Positions 46,518 through 50,801 of a DNA stretch of 64,000 bases are shown in pieces. The stretch lies in assembly GCA_949788275.1 (NCBI GenBank), contig OX460916.1, forward strand, positions 3,100,001 through 3,164,000. Direction: 5' to 3'. The notes under the pieces are model-generated. The model made no database searches, had not been told where the DNA came from, and worked only from the letters and a program-made list of their open reading frames with translations. Both the position numbers and the translations under genes were made by a program. Within the stretch, counting starts at the first letter, position 1, and each line of letters starts with the position of its first letter. The stretch comes from Weeksellaceae bacterium (GTDB lineage Bacteria > Bacteroidota > Bacteroidia > Flavobacteriales > Weeksellaceae).

Positions 46518-47116
46518 GTTCAAAAATTTAGTTTTTAAAAAGTTTTTCAGAGTCCTAGCAAGAAAATATTGTACCGTAATTTAATTTCAAATGTTAAATG
46601 CATCCATATCACCGTTTATAAGTGGATTTTATGCCATCTTGTTTATTATTTATTATCGTTTATTATTAAGGTTAAATTGGTGATATATAGTGTTTTGTGT
46701 GTTATTTAAAAATAGGATATTCTCGTAAATGAAAAGAGTGTTAAAATTTTGATTTTTTTGGCTTTATCTCTATTTAAATGGGTTGTTTTAGAAGAGAATT
46801 CTACGTTTTTTAAGTTTTTTAACCAATCAATAAATGTATTTAGGCTCAGTTATTGCAGTTGTTTGATTTGTAGTTATATAGAGTTGATGAGCGTTTTGAG
46901 TTACTTGTTTTACAGTACTTTAGTTAAGCAACTTATTTTTACGCATAAGCAATTAAACCAACAATTATTCGGCTCTTTATTAAACGTCTCGTCAAGACCT
47001 CATGGAACTTTAGTGCATCGGTGGTTAAGTTAAATAATGGTTGAAAAACTTTCTAAATGAGATGAACGAACAAGGGTTAATCCTATAATAAACACAACGA
47101 CCAAAATAGATAAATT
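46518..47116. other. AT-rich intergenic region upstream of the PepSY/two-component cluster
   Basis: About 600 bp. A 95-codon open stretch at 46749-47033 (plus) has no ATG, low-complexity hydrophobic content and no family resemblance, and is taken as chance in AT-rich DNA. No terminator or exact -7 box was seen near the 47117 start. Confidence 0.45.
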
Positions 47117-47623
47117 ATGAAAAAGAAATTAATTACTTTAATGCTATTATCAGCGACAACATTTGTTTTTTCTTCATGGAAAACAATTTCCCACGTAGAA
47201 CAAACCATTGATGGATTAGTTAGCGTAGATTTAGCTGATGTCGACCCATTAGACCAAACACAAAGAGGCATTCCTTTAAAGGCAACCTCTTTTTTATCAG
47301 ACCACTTTTCGGGTGTAGCTATTCGCAAAGTAAAAGTGAAAAAATATGCGACGGAAGCCGCTCAGAAAAAATATGAAGTGAAGTTAATCAACGGTGTCGA
47401 AGTCGATTTCAATAGCGATGGTGATTGGTTGGAAGTCGATGGTAATCATCAAGCCATTCCCAATGCCATTTTACCTAAAAATGTGGCTCATTATATAAAA
47501 AATAACTATCCTAATTCCGCTGTTGAGAAAATTGAAAAAGAAGCAACAAAATACGAAGTTGAATTATTGAACGGCATCGATTTGGAGTTTGATCTTCAGG
47601 GTAACTTCTTGCGGATTGACTAA
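47117..47623 (+). CDS. PepSY-like (PF11396-type) secreted protein 1
   Basis: 168 residues with a signal peptide (MKKKLITLMLLSATTFVFSS). Two PepSY-like repeats follow, each with the pattern xxYEVxLxNGxxxxFxxxGxWLxVD: KKYEVKLINGVEVDFNSDGDW (about residues 93-112) and TKYEVELLNGIDLEFDLQG near the end. It is similar to the two proteins at 49756 and 50235. Such proteins are periplasmic and often accompany two-component systems in Bacteroidota; they may be targets or ligand binders. Ends with a terminator, so it is a separate transcript from the regulator. Confidence 0.82.
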   Translation: MKKKLITLMLLSATTFVFSSWKTISHVEQTIDGLVSVDLADVDPLDQTQRGIPLKATSFLSDHFSGVAIRKVKVKKYATEAAQKKYEVKLINGVEVDFNSDGDWLEVDGNHQAIPNAILPKNVAHYIKNNYPNSAVEKIEKEATKYEVELLNGIDLEFDLQGNFLRID

Positions 47624-47643
47624 AAATGAATCAAATATACACG

Positions 47644-47674
47644 TAAAGCGACACCAAAAGGAGTCGCTTTTTTT
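47644..47674 (+). terminator. Terminator after PepSY-like protein 1
   Basis: AAGCGAC and GTCGCTT pair around ACCAAAAGGA, followed by seven T. Confidence 0.8.
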
Positions 47675-47721
47675 AGTGCATCGTCAATAAATCATTCCCA
47701 ATTCTTTCCAAGAAGATACAA

Positions 47722-47729
47722 TATCTTTG
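47722..47729 (+). promoter_or_regulatory. Bacteroidota -7 box for the two-component system
   Basis: TATCTTTG matches TAnnTTTG, 21 bp before the response-regulator ATG at 47751. It overlaps the earlier in-frame TTG and so supports the ATG. Confidence 0.5.
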
Positions 47730-47750
47730 TACTTTTATAGAAACTATGGC

Positions 47751-48422
47751 ATGAAAATTTTAATTGTGGAAGACGAACTCGAACTCAGTAGAGTGATTCG
47801 TCAATCTTTAGAAGACGAGCTTTTTGTTGTTGAAAGTGCTGCGAATTTGAAAGAAGGGCTCGATAAAATTATTGCCTTTGATTACGACCTTATTTTACTC
47901 GATATTATGCTTCCCGATGGCAGTGGAATAAACCTTCTTAAAGAGCTCAAGAAGCTGCATAAAAAAGAGGCTGTTATTATTCTCTCAGCAAAAGACTCTG
48001 TGGATGATAAGGTGGAAGGATTAAACCTTGGTGCCGATGACTACTTGGCTAAACCTTTTCATTTAGCCGAATTACATGCCCGAGTTAAATCAGCCATTCG
48101 TCGCAAAAATCAAGACGGAGACCAAAGTGTAGTATTTAAAAACGTACAACTTTTTCCAGATGATCGAAAAGTGTTAATCAATAAGGTAGAAGTTAAGTTG
48201 AATAGAAAAGAATATGACTTATTGTATTACTTTATCATTCGCCCAGAAAAGCTAATGCATAAAACGGCTTTAGCTGAGGCTATATGGGGTGATCATATGG
48301 ATCAAGCTGATAGCCTCGATTTTATTTACTCTCAAATAAAAAATCTTCGTAAAAAATTGAAAGATCATTCGGCCCAATTCGATATTGAAGCTGTTTATGG
48401 GGTTGGTTATAAATTGGTGTAA
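47751..48422 (+). CDS. Response regulator, OmpR/PhoB family
   Basis: 223 residues. Receiver domain at 1-115 with acidic pocket E7/D8, phosphoacceptor D51 (LILLDIMLPDG), T/S at S79 and K101 (YLAKPF). The C-terminal winged helix (about 125-223) has the OmpR/PhoB pattern (NRKEYDLLYYFI, DFIYSQIKNLRKKL, AVYGVGYKLV). It would bind DNA as a dimer when phosphorylated by the kinase encoded next, whose ATG is 2 bp after this stop. Confidence 0.94.
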   Translation: MKILIVEDELELSRVIRQSLEDELFVVESAANLKEGLDKIIAFDYDLILLDIMLPDGSGINLLKELKKLHKKEAVIILSAKDSVDDKVEGLNLGADDYLAKPFHLAELHARVKSAIRRKNQDGDQSVVFKNVQLFPDDRKVLINKVEVKLNRKEYDLLYYFIIRPEKLMHKTALAEAIWGDHMDQADSLDFIYSQIKNLRKKLKDHSAQFDIEAVYGVGYKLV

Positions 48423-48423
48423 A

Positions 48424-49698
48424 ATGATTCATTCCTTAAAAAATTATACCCTTCGCTATTTCGTCTTCATCATTCTCTTGGTAATCGCTGTTTGGGCTCT
48501 TCTATTTTATGCGTTTATCCTCGATGAAGTTTATGACAATGTCGATGATGGATTAAAAAATCAGAAAATAGAAATTATTCGGGAAACGTTTAAAGACCCT
48601 TCTCTACTTAAAACTGACGCTTTCGGAATCAATCAATACCGTATTCTTCCCATCAAGCAATCGGCTTTTAATTCGTCCAACATTCTCCACAACGATATGA
48701 TTTATATGCCCTACGATGGCGAGAAAGAACCTTATCGGGTATTAACAACAGCATTTTACGCGGTGAATGGCGATCCTTATCAGCTTGAAATCAGGACTTC
48801 CACGGTGGAAGAAGATGATTTGTTAAAAGATTTATTCATAGCGTTAATTGTCTTATATGTCGTTTTAGTACTCAGTATTTACCTCGTCAACACCCTGGTC
48901 ATTCGGAAGGCTTGGCGCCCTTTTCACACCATTCTTAATAATCTAGCTCACCATGAATTGGGAGCAGATAATTTATTTACCAATCAAGAAACAAAAATCA
49001 AAGAATTTAATACCTTAAATACGCAAATCGAAAAAATGATTGATCGGAATGAGCAGGTTTTTCAACAGCAAAAAAGCTTTATTGAAAACGCATCCCATGA
49101 ATTGCTTACTCCATTAGCCATTACCATTAATCAACTCGATTTGTTAATGAACGATGAACAATTAGTAGAACATCAATTGGTGAAAATTAGCGAAGCGAAA
49201 TCGTCCTTACATCGGTTGGTTAACCTCAATAAATCGCTACTCATGCTATCCAAGATTGAGAATGCTCAATATGCATTAAATGAGCAGGTGAATTTTAATG
49301 AGGTTATACGCTCTGTAATGGTCGAGCTTGAGGATTTTTTTGAATTTAAAAATATAGATTGTGAATACATCGAGAATGGTCAGTTTATATCCAAGGCCAA
49401 TACCGATTTAATTAAAATCTTATGCTCTAATCTACTTAGAAATGCGATTAAATATTCGCCTAGTCATGGAACAATTCGTTTAAATGTGAATACAGATTCA
49501 ATCATGGTGTCCAATACTTCGCTTGGTGTACCCTTGAACAGTCGCTATATATTTAACCGTTTTTATAAACAATCATCCGATAACCTTTCCACGGGTTTAG
49601 GATTATCAATTGTAAAATCAATAATCGACACAACTCCTCATCTCCAAATCAACTATAGTTTTGTCGATAATCTTCATCAATTTCAGATTACAAAATAA
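48424..49698 (+). CDS. Sensor histidine kinase
   Basis: 424 residues: membrane segment 1 at about 13-32, a periplasmic sensor region of about 105 residues, membrane segment 2 at about 138-160, then a linker, the dimerisation domain with phosphoacceptor H225 in ENASHELLTP, and an ATPase domain with the N box (LCSNLLRNAIKYSP) and a G box (GLGLSIVKSI). Every catalytic box is present, so it should be active. The start is ATG 48424. Co-transcribed with the regulator before it. Confidence 0.93.
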   Translation: MIHSLKNYTLRYFVFIILLVIAVWALLFYAFILDEVYDNVDDGLKNQKIEIIRETFKDPSLLKTDAFGINQYRILPIKQSAFNSSNILHNDMIYMPYDGEKEPYRVLTTAFYAVNGDPYQLEIRTSTVEEDDLLKDLFIALIVLYVVLVLSIYLVNTLVIRKAWRPFHTILNNLAHHELGADNLFTNQETKIKEFNTLNTQIEKMIDRNEQVFQQQKSFIENASHELLTPLAITINQLDLLMNDEQLVEHQLVKISEAKSSLHRLVNLNKSLLMLSKIENAQYALNEQVNFNEVIRSVMVELEDFFEFKNIDCEYIENGQFISKANTDLIKILCSNLLRNAIKYSPSHGTIRLNVNTDSIMVSNTSLGVPLNSRYIFNRFYKQSSDNLSTGLGLSIVKSIIDTTPHLQINYSFVDNLHQFQITK

Positions 49699-49755
49699 CA
49701 TTCCCATTTCTTTCCCAATTTGATTCTCAACTTTGTCCTATCAAAATAAATAAAG

Positions 49756-50208
49756 ATGAAAAAGTTAATCAATCAAATCAAAGTTTTAAGTGTTATGGCT
49801 GCCTTGTTCTTAGTCACTGCAGTATCCGCTCAAAATAAAATTATTTCACCCAACGAGTTGCCTAAAAAAGCACAGTCGTTTTTAAATAAACATTTTTCCA
49901 ATCAAACGATTTCATTCGTTACCCTCGATCGAAATTATTTAATGTCCAAAGAATACGATGTTTTATTAGCGAATGGTACGAAAATAGAATTTTCGAGCGA
50001 TGGGGCTTGGGAAGAAGTGGATGGTGAATTGCAAACGATTCCTACAGCTTTTATTCCTACTTCTATCCTTCAGTATGTGAAGAGAAGTTTTCCAAATACC
50101 CAAATCACGAAAATAGAGAAAGATCGCTCAGGTTACGACGTCAAAATTTCAAATGGAATTGGTCTCGAATTTAATAGCCAAGGCGTTTTTAAAAGAATAG
50201 ATGATTAA
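49756..50208 (+). CDS. PepSY-like secreted protein 2
   Basis: 150 residues, signal peptide (MKKLINQIKVLSVMAALFLVTAVSAQ shape), then two PepSY-like repeats with KEYDVLLANGTKIEFSSDG and SGYDVKISNGIGLEFNSQG. It follows the kinase by 58 bp, without a visible terminator, so it is probably in the same transcript and a likely output or partner of the system. Similar in length and pattern to the gene at 47117. Confidence 0.8.
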   Translation: MKKLINQIKVLSVMAALFLVTAVSAQNKIISPNELPKKAQSFLNKHFSNQTISFVTLDRNYLMSKEYDVLLANGTKIEFSSDGAWEEVDGELQTIPTAFIPTSILQYVKRSFPNTQITKIEKDRSGYDVKISNGIGLEFNSQGVFKRIDD

Positions 50209-50234
50209 TCCAACAATACGATAAATAAAAGAAA

Positions 50235-50705
50235 ATGAAAAAAATATTCACCACACTTGTTCTATGTACTGCCATAGGATTCACATTAAGCTCTTGCCAT
50301 AACGATGATGATCATCCTACCACAACCGAAATAATGACAGAGGCCAATTTACCCGAACCAGCTAAAAATTTTATCAATCAGTTTTTCAGCGATTATCCTG
50401 TTCAAACCATTAAGAAAATTGTTAATCCAAATGCCATTCAAACGACAATCTATGAAGTTGAATATACCAACCGAATGGAAATTGATTTTGATGTGGCTGG
50501 GAATTGGTTAGATGTGGATTCAGAAAATAATCTACCTATACCAACCGGATTCATTCTTCCTTCAATCATGGATTATGTGAAAACGAACTATCCACTGGCT
50601 CAAGTGAAAGGAATAGAGAAGAAAACGATGGGCTTTGAAGTTGAATTAACCAACAGCATCGATTTAATTTTCGATCCTAATGGACAATTTATTCGTTTAG
50701 ACTAA
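50235..50705 (+). CDS. PepSY-like lipoprotein 3
   Basis: 156 residues with a lipoprotein signal ending in GFTLSSC (Cys about 21) followed by a His/Asp-rich stretch (HNDDDHP) that could bind metal. Two PepSY-like repeats follow (TIYEVEYTNRMEIDFDVAG and MGFEVELTNSIDLIFDPNG). It starts 27 bp after the second PepSY gene. The lipid anchor suggests that it stays at a membrane while proteins 1 and 2 are soluble. Confidence 0.8.
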   Translation: MKKIFTTLVLCTAIGFTLSSCHNDDDHPTTTEIMTEANLPEPAKNFINQFFSDYPVQTIKKIVNPNAIQTTIYEVEYTNRMEIDFDVAGNWLDVDSENNLPIPTGFILPSIMDYVKTNYPLAQVKGIEKKTMGFEVELTNSIDLIFDPNGQFIRLD

Positions 50706-50751
50706 ACCACTAGACTAAACCACGTTTAACATTATAATTGTTTTTTATACT

Positions 50752-50783
50752 AAAAAGCGATTCAGATTCTGAATCGCTTTTAT
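50752..50783. terminator. Bidirectional terminator between the PepSY cluster and the M16 gene
   Basis: AAAAGCGATTCAG pairs with CTGAATCGCTTTT almost without a loop; A and T runs on both sides serve the converging genes. Confidence 0.85.
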
Positions 50784-50801
50784 AGGTATTTCTATTAAAT
50801 A

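Follow-up and report, generated by a model that had tools for sequence, protein, structure and literature searches.

A direct-repeat operator of fixed geometry probably joins PepSY-like genes to an adjacent two-component system in Weeksellaceae and other Bacteroidota

In CpxP/CpxA and related accessory-protein loops, a periplasmic protein induced by the response regulator feeds back on the kinase. PepSY genes have been reported near two-component genes in several phyla, and in Vibrio cholerae the gene of the periplasmic PepSY protein DbfQ adjoins dbfRS, and its product binds the sensor domain of DbfS at about 30 nM and favours phosphatase activity (PMC12714742). The string "bacteroid" does not occur in the text of that paper. 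In Porphyromonas gingivalis, HaeR binds its own promoter, and PG0717, which lies beside HaeSR (PG0719/PG0720), has four DUF2874 domains (PMC3764172); the kinase HaeS, of about 427 residues, has a 104-residue periplasmic region with seven tyrosines and an H/ExxT arrangement (PMC5706477). PG0717 was predicted to be periplasmic by its authors and shares an operon with PG0718, the PG0717-PG0720 context is kept in Bacteroidales, deletion of PG0717 has pleiotropic effects that include reduced gingipain activity, and PG0717 and PG0718 were proposed in 2013 as auxiliary regulators of PG0719/PG0720 (PMC3772042, a text in which the words "DUF2874" and "PepSY" are absent). The fold of this family (DUF2874, equivalent to PF11396) has been termed inhibitor-like (PMC2954215); despite solved structures, we found no demonstrated molecular role for PF11396 proteins in the open-licence literature. 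Here we analyse a locus at positions 47117-50705 of a 64,000-nucleotide stretch of the genome of a Weeksellaceae bacterium (the window; GCA_949788275.1, contig OX460916.1, 3,100,001 to 3,164,000), in which five co-directional genes encode PepSY1, an OmpR-type regulator, a histidine kinase, PepSY2, and PepSY3. An earlier note on this DNA had described a regulator and kinase flanked by one upstream and two downstream members of one small exported family; domain assignment bears this out, with the three small exported proteins all passing the Pfam cut-off for PF11396.

Reading of the intergenic DNA revealed a near-identical 17-mer before the regulator gene (47693) and before PepSY2 (49699), in both cases 29 base pairs (bp) 5' of a TANNTTTG-like element, which we take to be the -7 promoter consensus. 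Taken alone, the 17-mer carries little weight, since as many matches at ≤3 mismatches turned up in 12 of 100 shuffled versions of the window. With related loci the operator consensus reads TTCCYAWWTCTTTCCYA-N14-TTTG, an 11-bp direct repeat with half-sites TTCCYAA at positions 1 and 12, held at a fixed distance from the promoter element. Half-sites of known OmpR-type sites are also 11 bp apart. Sites with ≤2 mismatches in the window's own genome are the two at this locus and none elsewhere; at ≤3 mismatches the number rises to four, the two at the locus having 0 and 1 mismatch and the other two having 3 each, compared with 10 for the backwards pattern. A weight matrix trained on 65 sites of other organisms gave two positive scores across the 64-kilobase (kb) window, 47.8 at 49701 and 21.1 at 47695, and no score above 5 in 20 single-base shuffles of it. 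At another place in the genome, a third exact copy of the shorter 17-mer falls inside a 406-residue frame that we read as beta-lactamase-like, and we discounted it as a chance match. Bacteroidota promoters are of another type than sigma-70, and a sigma-70 scan was uninformative.

We then compared 100 genomes of the bacterial family, the window's included. A kinase matching NF052314 (the PorY family) at E ≤ 1e-60 occurs in 34 of them and PF11396 in 49, and all 46 further kinase places were examined. Seventeen genomes, again counting the window's, have a close kinase, defined as scoring at least 378 bits against the window kinase. Of the 17 close loci, 16 have a PepSY_like gene no farther than about 1.1 kb from the regulator-kinase pair; the exception (G002, L047) has its single PF11396 gene elsewhere (L084), preceded by an exact operator. 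PepSY genes are upstream only in 4 loci, downstream only in 11, and on both sides only in the window, so the three-plus-two gene order, whose conservation the earlier note had proposed as a check, is not kept among the 17. The block TTCCYAWWTCTTTCCYA, 14 bases, and TTTG precedes the first PepSY gene in nearly all close loci and several of the regulator genes. The exact operator is present in 15 of the 17 close-kinase genomes and in none of the 83 others (Fisher p 5e-16, kinship ignored); PF11396 occurs in 32 of those 83. The two remaining close-kinase genomes (G055, G088) carry variant sites with matrix scores of 29-32.

Across the family sample there were 30 operator matches at ≤1 mismatch, compared with 3 for the reversed control. 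All but one of the 17 exact matches precede PepSY_like genes. The 13 one-mismatch matches fall inside coding genes in six cases (G091, G062, G074, G084, G072:C112, G060:956127) and before the regulator in four (G000, G073, G083, G099); single matches precede an unlinked PepSY frame (G073, L123), a DUF2490 protein (G060, L122), and a 285-residue exported protein without a Pfam match (G044, L117:623-1480). Unlinked PepSY genes with an operator are found in two kinase-bearing genomes (L084, L086). Among 14 further PepSY loci examined away from such kinases (L080-L093), a site is present only at these two and at L087; L081 has a 20-bit matrix match on the opposite strand. The L087 site is weaker (score 24), its PepSY gene adjoins a 61-residue regulator remnant in a genome without a close kinase, and L087:4191-4893 is probably a decayed copy of the system. 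At the level of sequence, the analysis establishes the genes, an operator that has a fixed geometry and is linked to PepSY_like genes, and the co-occurrence of this operator with the kinase; a regulatory link from regulator through operator to PepSY is well supported by sequence.

Separately, the operator lies upstream of an exported DUF2490 protein (L122:1564-2496; Pfam was run on L122 alone) and, exact or with 1 mismatch, of its look-alikes at L114 (the remaining exact match of the family sample), L140, and L166. These proteins are probably an extra operator target in Chryseobacterium-type genomes.

Beyond the family, a scan of 84,980 species that allowed spacers of 13-15 bases returned at least 120 stretches, 80 of which were examined as loci, a sample conditioned on the operator. 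The first gene behind the site was PepSY_like in 64 of the 80 loci listed, all with the 14-base spacer, and the regulator of such a pair in 7, of which 5 have the 13-base spacer; 9 were other or chance matches. For the PepSY calls we compiled the three window proteins and family relatives into a profile and applied it at E ≤ 1e-3 (62 by script, with L177 added by reading and L194 by Pfam). Several profile scores are low, such as 28 bits at L125 and L161, and the PepSY gene of L149 is a short form 338 bp away. Among the nine, L140 and L166 encode proteins like the L122 DUF2490 protein (by likeness, not Pfam), L153 and L171 are other Bacteroidota genes, L134 is intragenic, and L141, L186, L192, and L196 have non-Bacteroidota titles. 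The 80 loci contain 68 distinct site sequences, and three of them duplicate loci of the family sample (L143/L040, L150/L044, L167/L049). Titles among the matches listed include Bacteroides, Parabacteroides, Butyricimonas, Paraprevotella, Chryseobacterium, Empedobacter, Capnocytophaga, Sinomicrobium, Sphingobacterium, Algoriphagus, and Flavisolibacter. An unconditioned draw across the phylum found the exact site in 5 of 247 genomes (4 of 122 genera) and the reversed control in none. Four of these five sites precede PepSY_like genes; the fifth (L246) lies directly behind a related kinase gene and precedes a 65-residue exported frame that the profile does not call PepSY. Thus, the operator is widely scattered in Bacteroidota and far from universal.

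Each of the three window proteins exceeds the Pfam cut-off of 28.3 bits for PF11396 PepSY_like: PepSY1 with 94.7 bits (E 4e-27), PepSY2 with 90.5 (9e-26), and PepSY3 with 70.9 (1e-19). No other PepSY family was reported for them at E up to 1, and PepSY1 shares 41% identity with PepSY2 and 35% with PepSY3. Since all three PF11396 matches of the genome (one 3.34-Mb contig) sit at this locus, their clustering is not due to chance. PepSY1, the one protein searched against PDB, matched six chains over its mature length at E 2e-23 to 5e-20, including 3due (BVU2987); it combines a tandem repeat with likeness to BLIP-like solved structures. The two YEVxLxNGxxxxF repeats that the earlier note saw in every member are clear in PepSY1, and PepSY2 comes close to them; those of PepSY3, YEVEYTNRMEIDF and FEVELTNSIDLIF, fit the pattern loosely. 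Tyr67, Trp85, and Tyr107 (PepSY2 numbering) are kept in >90% of 90 two-repeat proteins, and no His, Cys, or Met other than the start reaches half of them.

PepSY3 is a lipoprotein with a His/Asp-rich start, as had been noted: its lipobox is followed by CHNDDDHP. The acidic residues close behind the +1 cysteine fit an export signal, and the start now reads as probably a localization signal for surface export. Among 20 script-picked gene pairs whose second PepSY gene is full-length, 19 of these second genes fit a C-x(1-4)-[DE][DE] lipoprotein start (17 of 18 when two loci fetched twice are counted once), and the twentieth reads CNNDNN. In Capnocytophaga, acidic starts of this kind send lipoproteins to the surface; the Bacteroides fragilis and Flavobacterium johnsoniae versions also work there, although less well (PMC5080379). 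We dropped a metal- or haem-binding reading of the start: what recurs is the run of Asp behind the lipobox cysteine, and conservation of a histidine in at least half of the family alignment is not seen. Sixteen loci (14 titled Chryseobacterium; one of the other two is a duplicate) have as second frame a leaderless half-domain of 66-85 residues; the one at L138:2217-2420 matches PF11396 at E 1e-8. At L138 and similar Chryseobacterium loci, the half-domain frame separates the exported PepSY gene from the regulator. Coordinates are collected in Table 1; the hairpin at 47645-47674 was absent from the list of a simple terminator scan.

Table 1. Features of the PepSY-flanked two-component locus, with positions in the window
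Feature	Position	Strand	Description
PepSY1	47117..47623	+	exported two-repeat PF11396 protein, 168 residues; no operator found upstream
Terminator-like hairpin with T-run, PepSY1/regulator gap	47645..47674	+	minimum free energy -14.3 kcal/mol, z -4.05 (47640-47680)
Operator and -7-like element, regulator gene promoter	47695..47729	+	1 mismatch to consensus; matrix score 21.1
OmpR-type response regulator	47751..48422, ATG start	+	Response_reg and Trans_reg_C; recognition helix with Y-S-Q
Histidine kinase	48424..49698, ATG start	+	424 residues; HisKA and HATPase_c; phosphoacceptor H225 in HELLT
Operator and -7-like element, PepSY2-PepSY3 promoter	49701..49735	+	exact consensus; matrix score 47.8
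PepSY2	49756..50208	+	soluble exported two-repeat PF11396 protein, 150 residues
PepSY3	50235..50705	+	PF11396 lipoprotein, 156 residues, C-H-N-D-D-D surface-export-like start
Perfect 14-nt inverted repeat, terminator-like, unit end	50753..50781	+	z -7.2 (50745-50790)

The window kinase scores 478 bits against NF052314 (cut-off 350), and no second kinase above this cut-off was found in the 3.34-Mb contig. Between its two transmembrane helices lies a small periplasmic sensor domain with seven tyrosines and one histidine in residues 37-142. A structural model built from 31 sequences (30 of 45 sensor regions were used after removal of near-duplicates) has a predicted local distance difference test score of 84.8 and a predicted template modelling score of 0.75, and folds as a long helix, a short helix, and four strands. 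The closest solved folds, at middling similarity, are extracytoplasmic PAS/Cache sensors such as WalK (Z 7.7, 97 residues, root-mean-square deviation 3.4) and PhoQ (Z 5.9), and Foldseek found no match to the model at E ≤ 0.001. The modelled domain is predicted to be PAS/Cache-like, and matches at this level are no proof of function.

Among 27 loci of more distant NF052314-family kinases (L052-L078), many have similar repeats directly behind the kinase gene, with other half-sites and neighbours. A TTCTAAA half-site precedes a sulfatase-domain protein at L058 (Pfam), L060, L065, and L066 (by likeness), a large receptor-like protein by our reading at L059, L061, L064, and L067, and a PAP2 protein at L069 (Pfam). 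A TTCAG-like half-site precedes an outer-membrane efflux protein at L052 (Pfam) and a PepSY protein at L055-L057, and a TTCAAA half-site precedes an exported protein of 471-482 residues at L074-L078, without a Pfam match in L074. The recognition helix of the regulator varies along with the half-site across these sibling groups, which were defined by eye: it has Y-S-Q in 16 of the 17 members of the close group (Y-Y-Q in L038) and Y-A-H or Y-Q-H in other groups, and L072, with Y-S-Q, has a TCC-type half-site.

The arrangement we favour, and whose chances we judge to be about even, is a self-contained envelope-sensing loop with the regulator-controlled PepSY2-PepSY3 unit as output and negative feedback on the kinase. 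The kinase would sense its signal through the small periplasmic domain and phosphorylate the regulator; the regulator would bind the 11-bp direct repeat and activate, rather than repress, its own promoter and that of PepSY2-PepSY3. PepSY2 is predicted to reach the periplasm and PepSY3, as a lipoprotein, probably the cell surface. The two proteins are likely to be the main output of the system, because the own-genome sites at ≤2 mismatches belong only to the PepSY unit and to the system itself. Periplasmic PepSY2 would most likely contact the sensor domain of the kinase and favour phosphatase activity, as DbfQ does on DbfS, closing a negative loop. The earlier note had suggested a relay directed at the kinase; the conserved association of PepSY genes with the pair stands, and for the role itself the V. 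cholerae and P. gingivalis parallels make feedback plausible, a well-motivated proposal by analogy.

Several findings weigh against this loop. No operator was found 5' of PepSY1, where the best matrix score in 46901-47117 was -31, and this gene is probably a transcription unit of its own because it lacks the operator common to the other two promoters and a terminator-like hairpin precedes the regulator gene. The exact site is rare in the unconditioned draw, and PF11396 matches that lack a nearby site at ≤1 mismatch are also present in 8 of the 17 kinase-bearing genomes (one each in G021, G043, G044, G061, G073, G083, and G099, several weak ones in G071); therefore, not every PF11396 gene belongs to the circuit. 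Sibling repeats before sulfatase, PAP2, and efflux genes may mean that PepSY is only an effector. DbfQ carries the domain IPR025711 PepSY, which we take to be Pfam PF03413, whereas the window proteins are PF11396. In P. gingivalis, the HaeR sites reported from chromatin immunoprecipitation sequencing lie before 57 genes and outline a much wider regulon; a regulator-deletion paper does not name PG0717 in its differential-expression part, its two mentions falling in the discussion and the reference list (PMC8757827).

The effector account, which we regard as a reasonable possibility though less likely than not, holds that envelope stress or a ligand is what the system detects and that the PepSY proteins it induces bind a ligand, a protein, or a cell-wall enzyme in the envelope without ever touching the kinase. 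The confinement of own-genome sites to the PepSY unit and the system fits this account as well, as do the sibling repeats before other envelope genes, the inhibitor-like PF11396 fold (PMC2954215), and the pleiotropic phenotype of the PG0717 deletion (PMC3772042). However, a PepSY protein acting on a neighbouring kinase has been demonstrated in V. cholerae (PMC12714742), and although L084 and L086 suggest that the operator can work at a distance, the genes are clustered in 16 of the 17 close loci.

It is doubtful that the system is a HaeSR-type haem or iron sensor, with a kinase that senses haem through its tyrosines and PepSY proteins that deal with haem or iron both on the surface and within the periplasm. 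The tyrosine-rich region and H/ExxT arrangement of HaeS (PMC5706477) have counterparts in the window kinase, PG0717 with its DUF2874 domains adjoins HaeSR, and the PepSY-like BT0922-0923 of Bacteroides thetaiotaomicron, perhaps from a locus of this type, appear in a table of genes apparently regulated in iron deficiency and colitis (PMC10434189). By contrast, the absence of a widely conserved His, Cys, or non-initial Met from the two-repeat PepSY proteins and the retention of each of the seven sensor tyrosines in just 16 to 52 of 71 kinases argue against haem sensing. A PorY-type kinase working with PorX on type IX secretion, the reading suggested by the NCBIfam label and its 478 bits, was dropped as highly improbable, given that scores above the NF052314 cut-off cover several kinase groups of the bacterial family with different adjacent genes and that the window kinase has its own adjacent OmpR-type regulator.

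A more speculative reading, which we think unlikely, is a two-compartment relay. Here the surface PepSY lipoprotein and the periplasmic PepSY protein, made from one regulator-controlled promoter, would inform the PAS-like kinase sensor about how the outer membrane, or a ligand that has been captured, is faring. Operator and recognition helix would have diversified together among siblings, one geometry with changed letters insulating parallel envelope circuits in one cell, each with one adjacent target.

The operator gives PF11396 loci in many Bacteroidota, including gut Bacteroides and Parabacteroides, a directly testable regulator, and it connects this family with the recent description of kinases controlled by PepSY proteins. 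Operators of one geometry with different half-sites are also suited to studying the insulation of paralogous regulators. No report of TTCCYAWWTCTTTCCYA-N14-TTTG was found in the open-licence literature on PepSY-like, DUF2874, or PF11396 proteins and HaeS. What is new is the operator and its distribution; the auxiliary-protein idea was already in print (PMC3772042), and the earlier remark that the mechanism was undescribed is, with the V. cholerae work (PMC12714742), partly out of date.

Set beside the described systems, the locus shares traits with each. Like PorY, the window kinase scores above the curated NF052314 cut-off, yet its gene lies directly behind that of an OmpR-type regulator, whereas PorY and PorX are encoded apart (PGN_2001 and PGN_1019; PMC4800418). 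A close counterpart in layout is HaeSR, a regulator-kinase pair of similar size and organization with an adjoining DUF2874 lipoprotein, PG0717 there and PepSY3 here, whose gene shares an operon with that of another exported protein; the window kinase resembles HaeS in its length of 424 residues, its HELLT with H225, and its seven periplasmic tyrosines. HaeSR differs in that PG0717 has four domains and is predicted to be periplasmic, and in that a broad haem regulon is reported there, compared with two sites in the genome here. We also found no operator described there, the words "consensus" and "direct repeat" being absent from PMC3764172. As in DbfQRS, a small PepSY protein is encoded beside a two-component pair, and the action on the sensor domain demonstrated for DbfQ is what we propose for PepSY2. 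Whereas dbfQ is upstream of dbfRS and is predicted to share a transcript with it, the PepSY unit of the window has a separate promoter and yields a lipoprotein as its second product. With CpxP/CpxA the locus would share a regulator-induced periplasmic protein that feeds back on its kinase, built here on a fold that we take to be unrelated.

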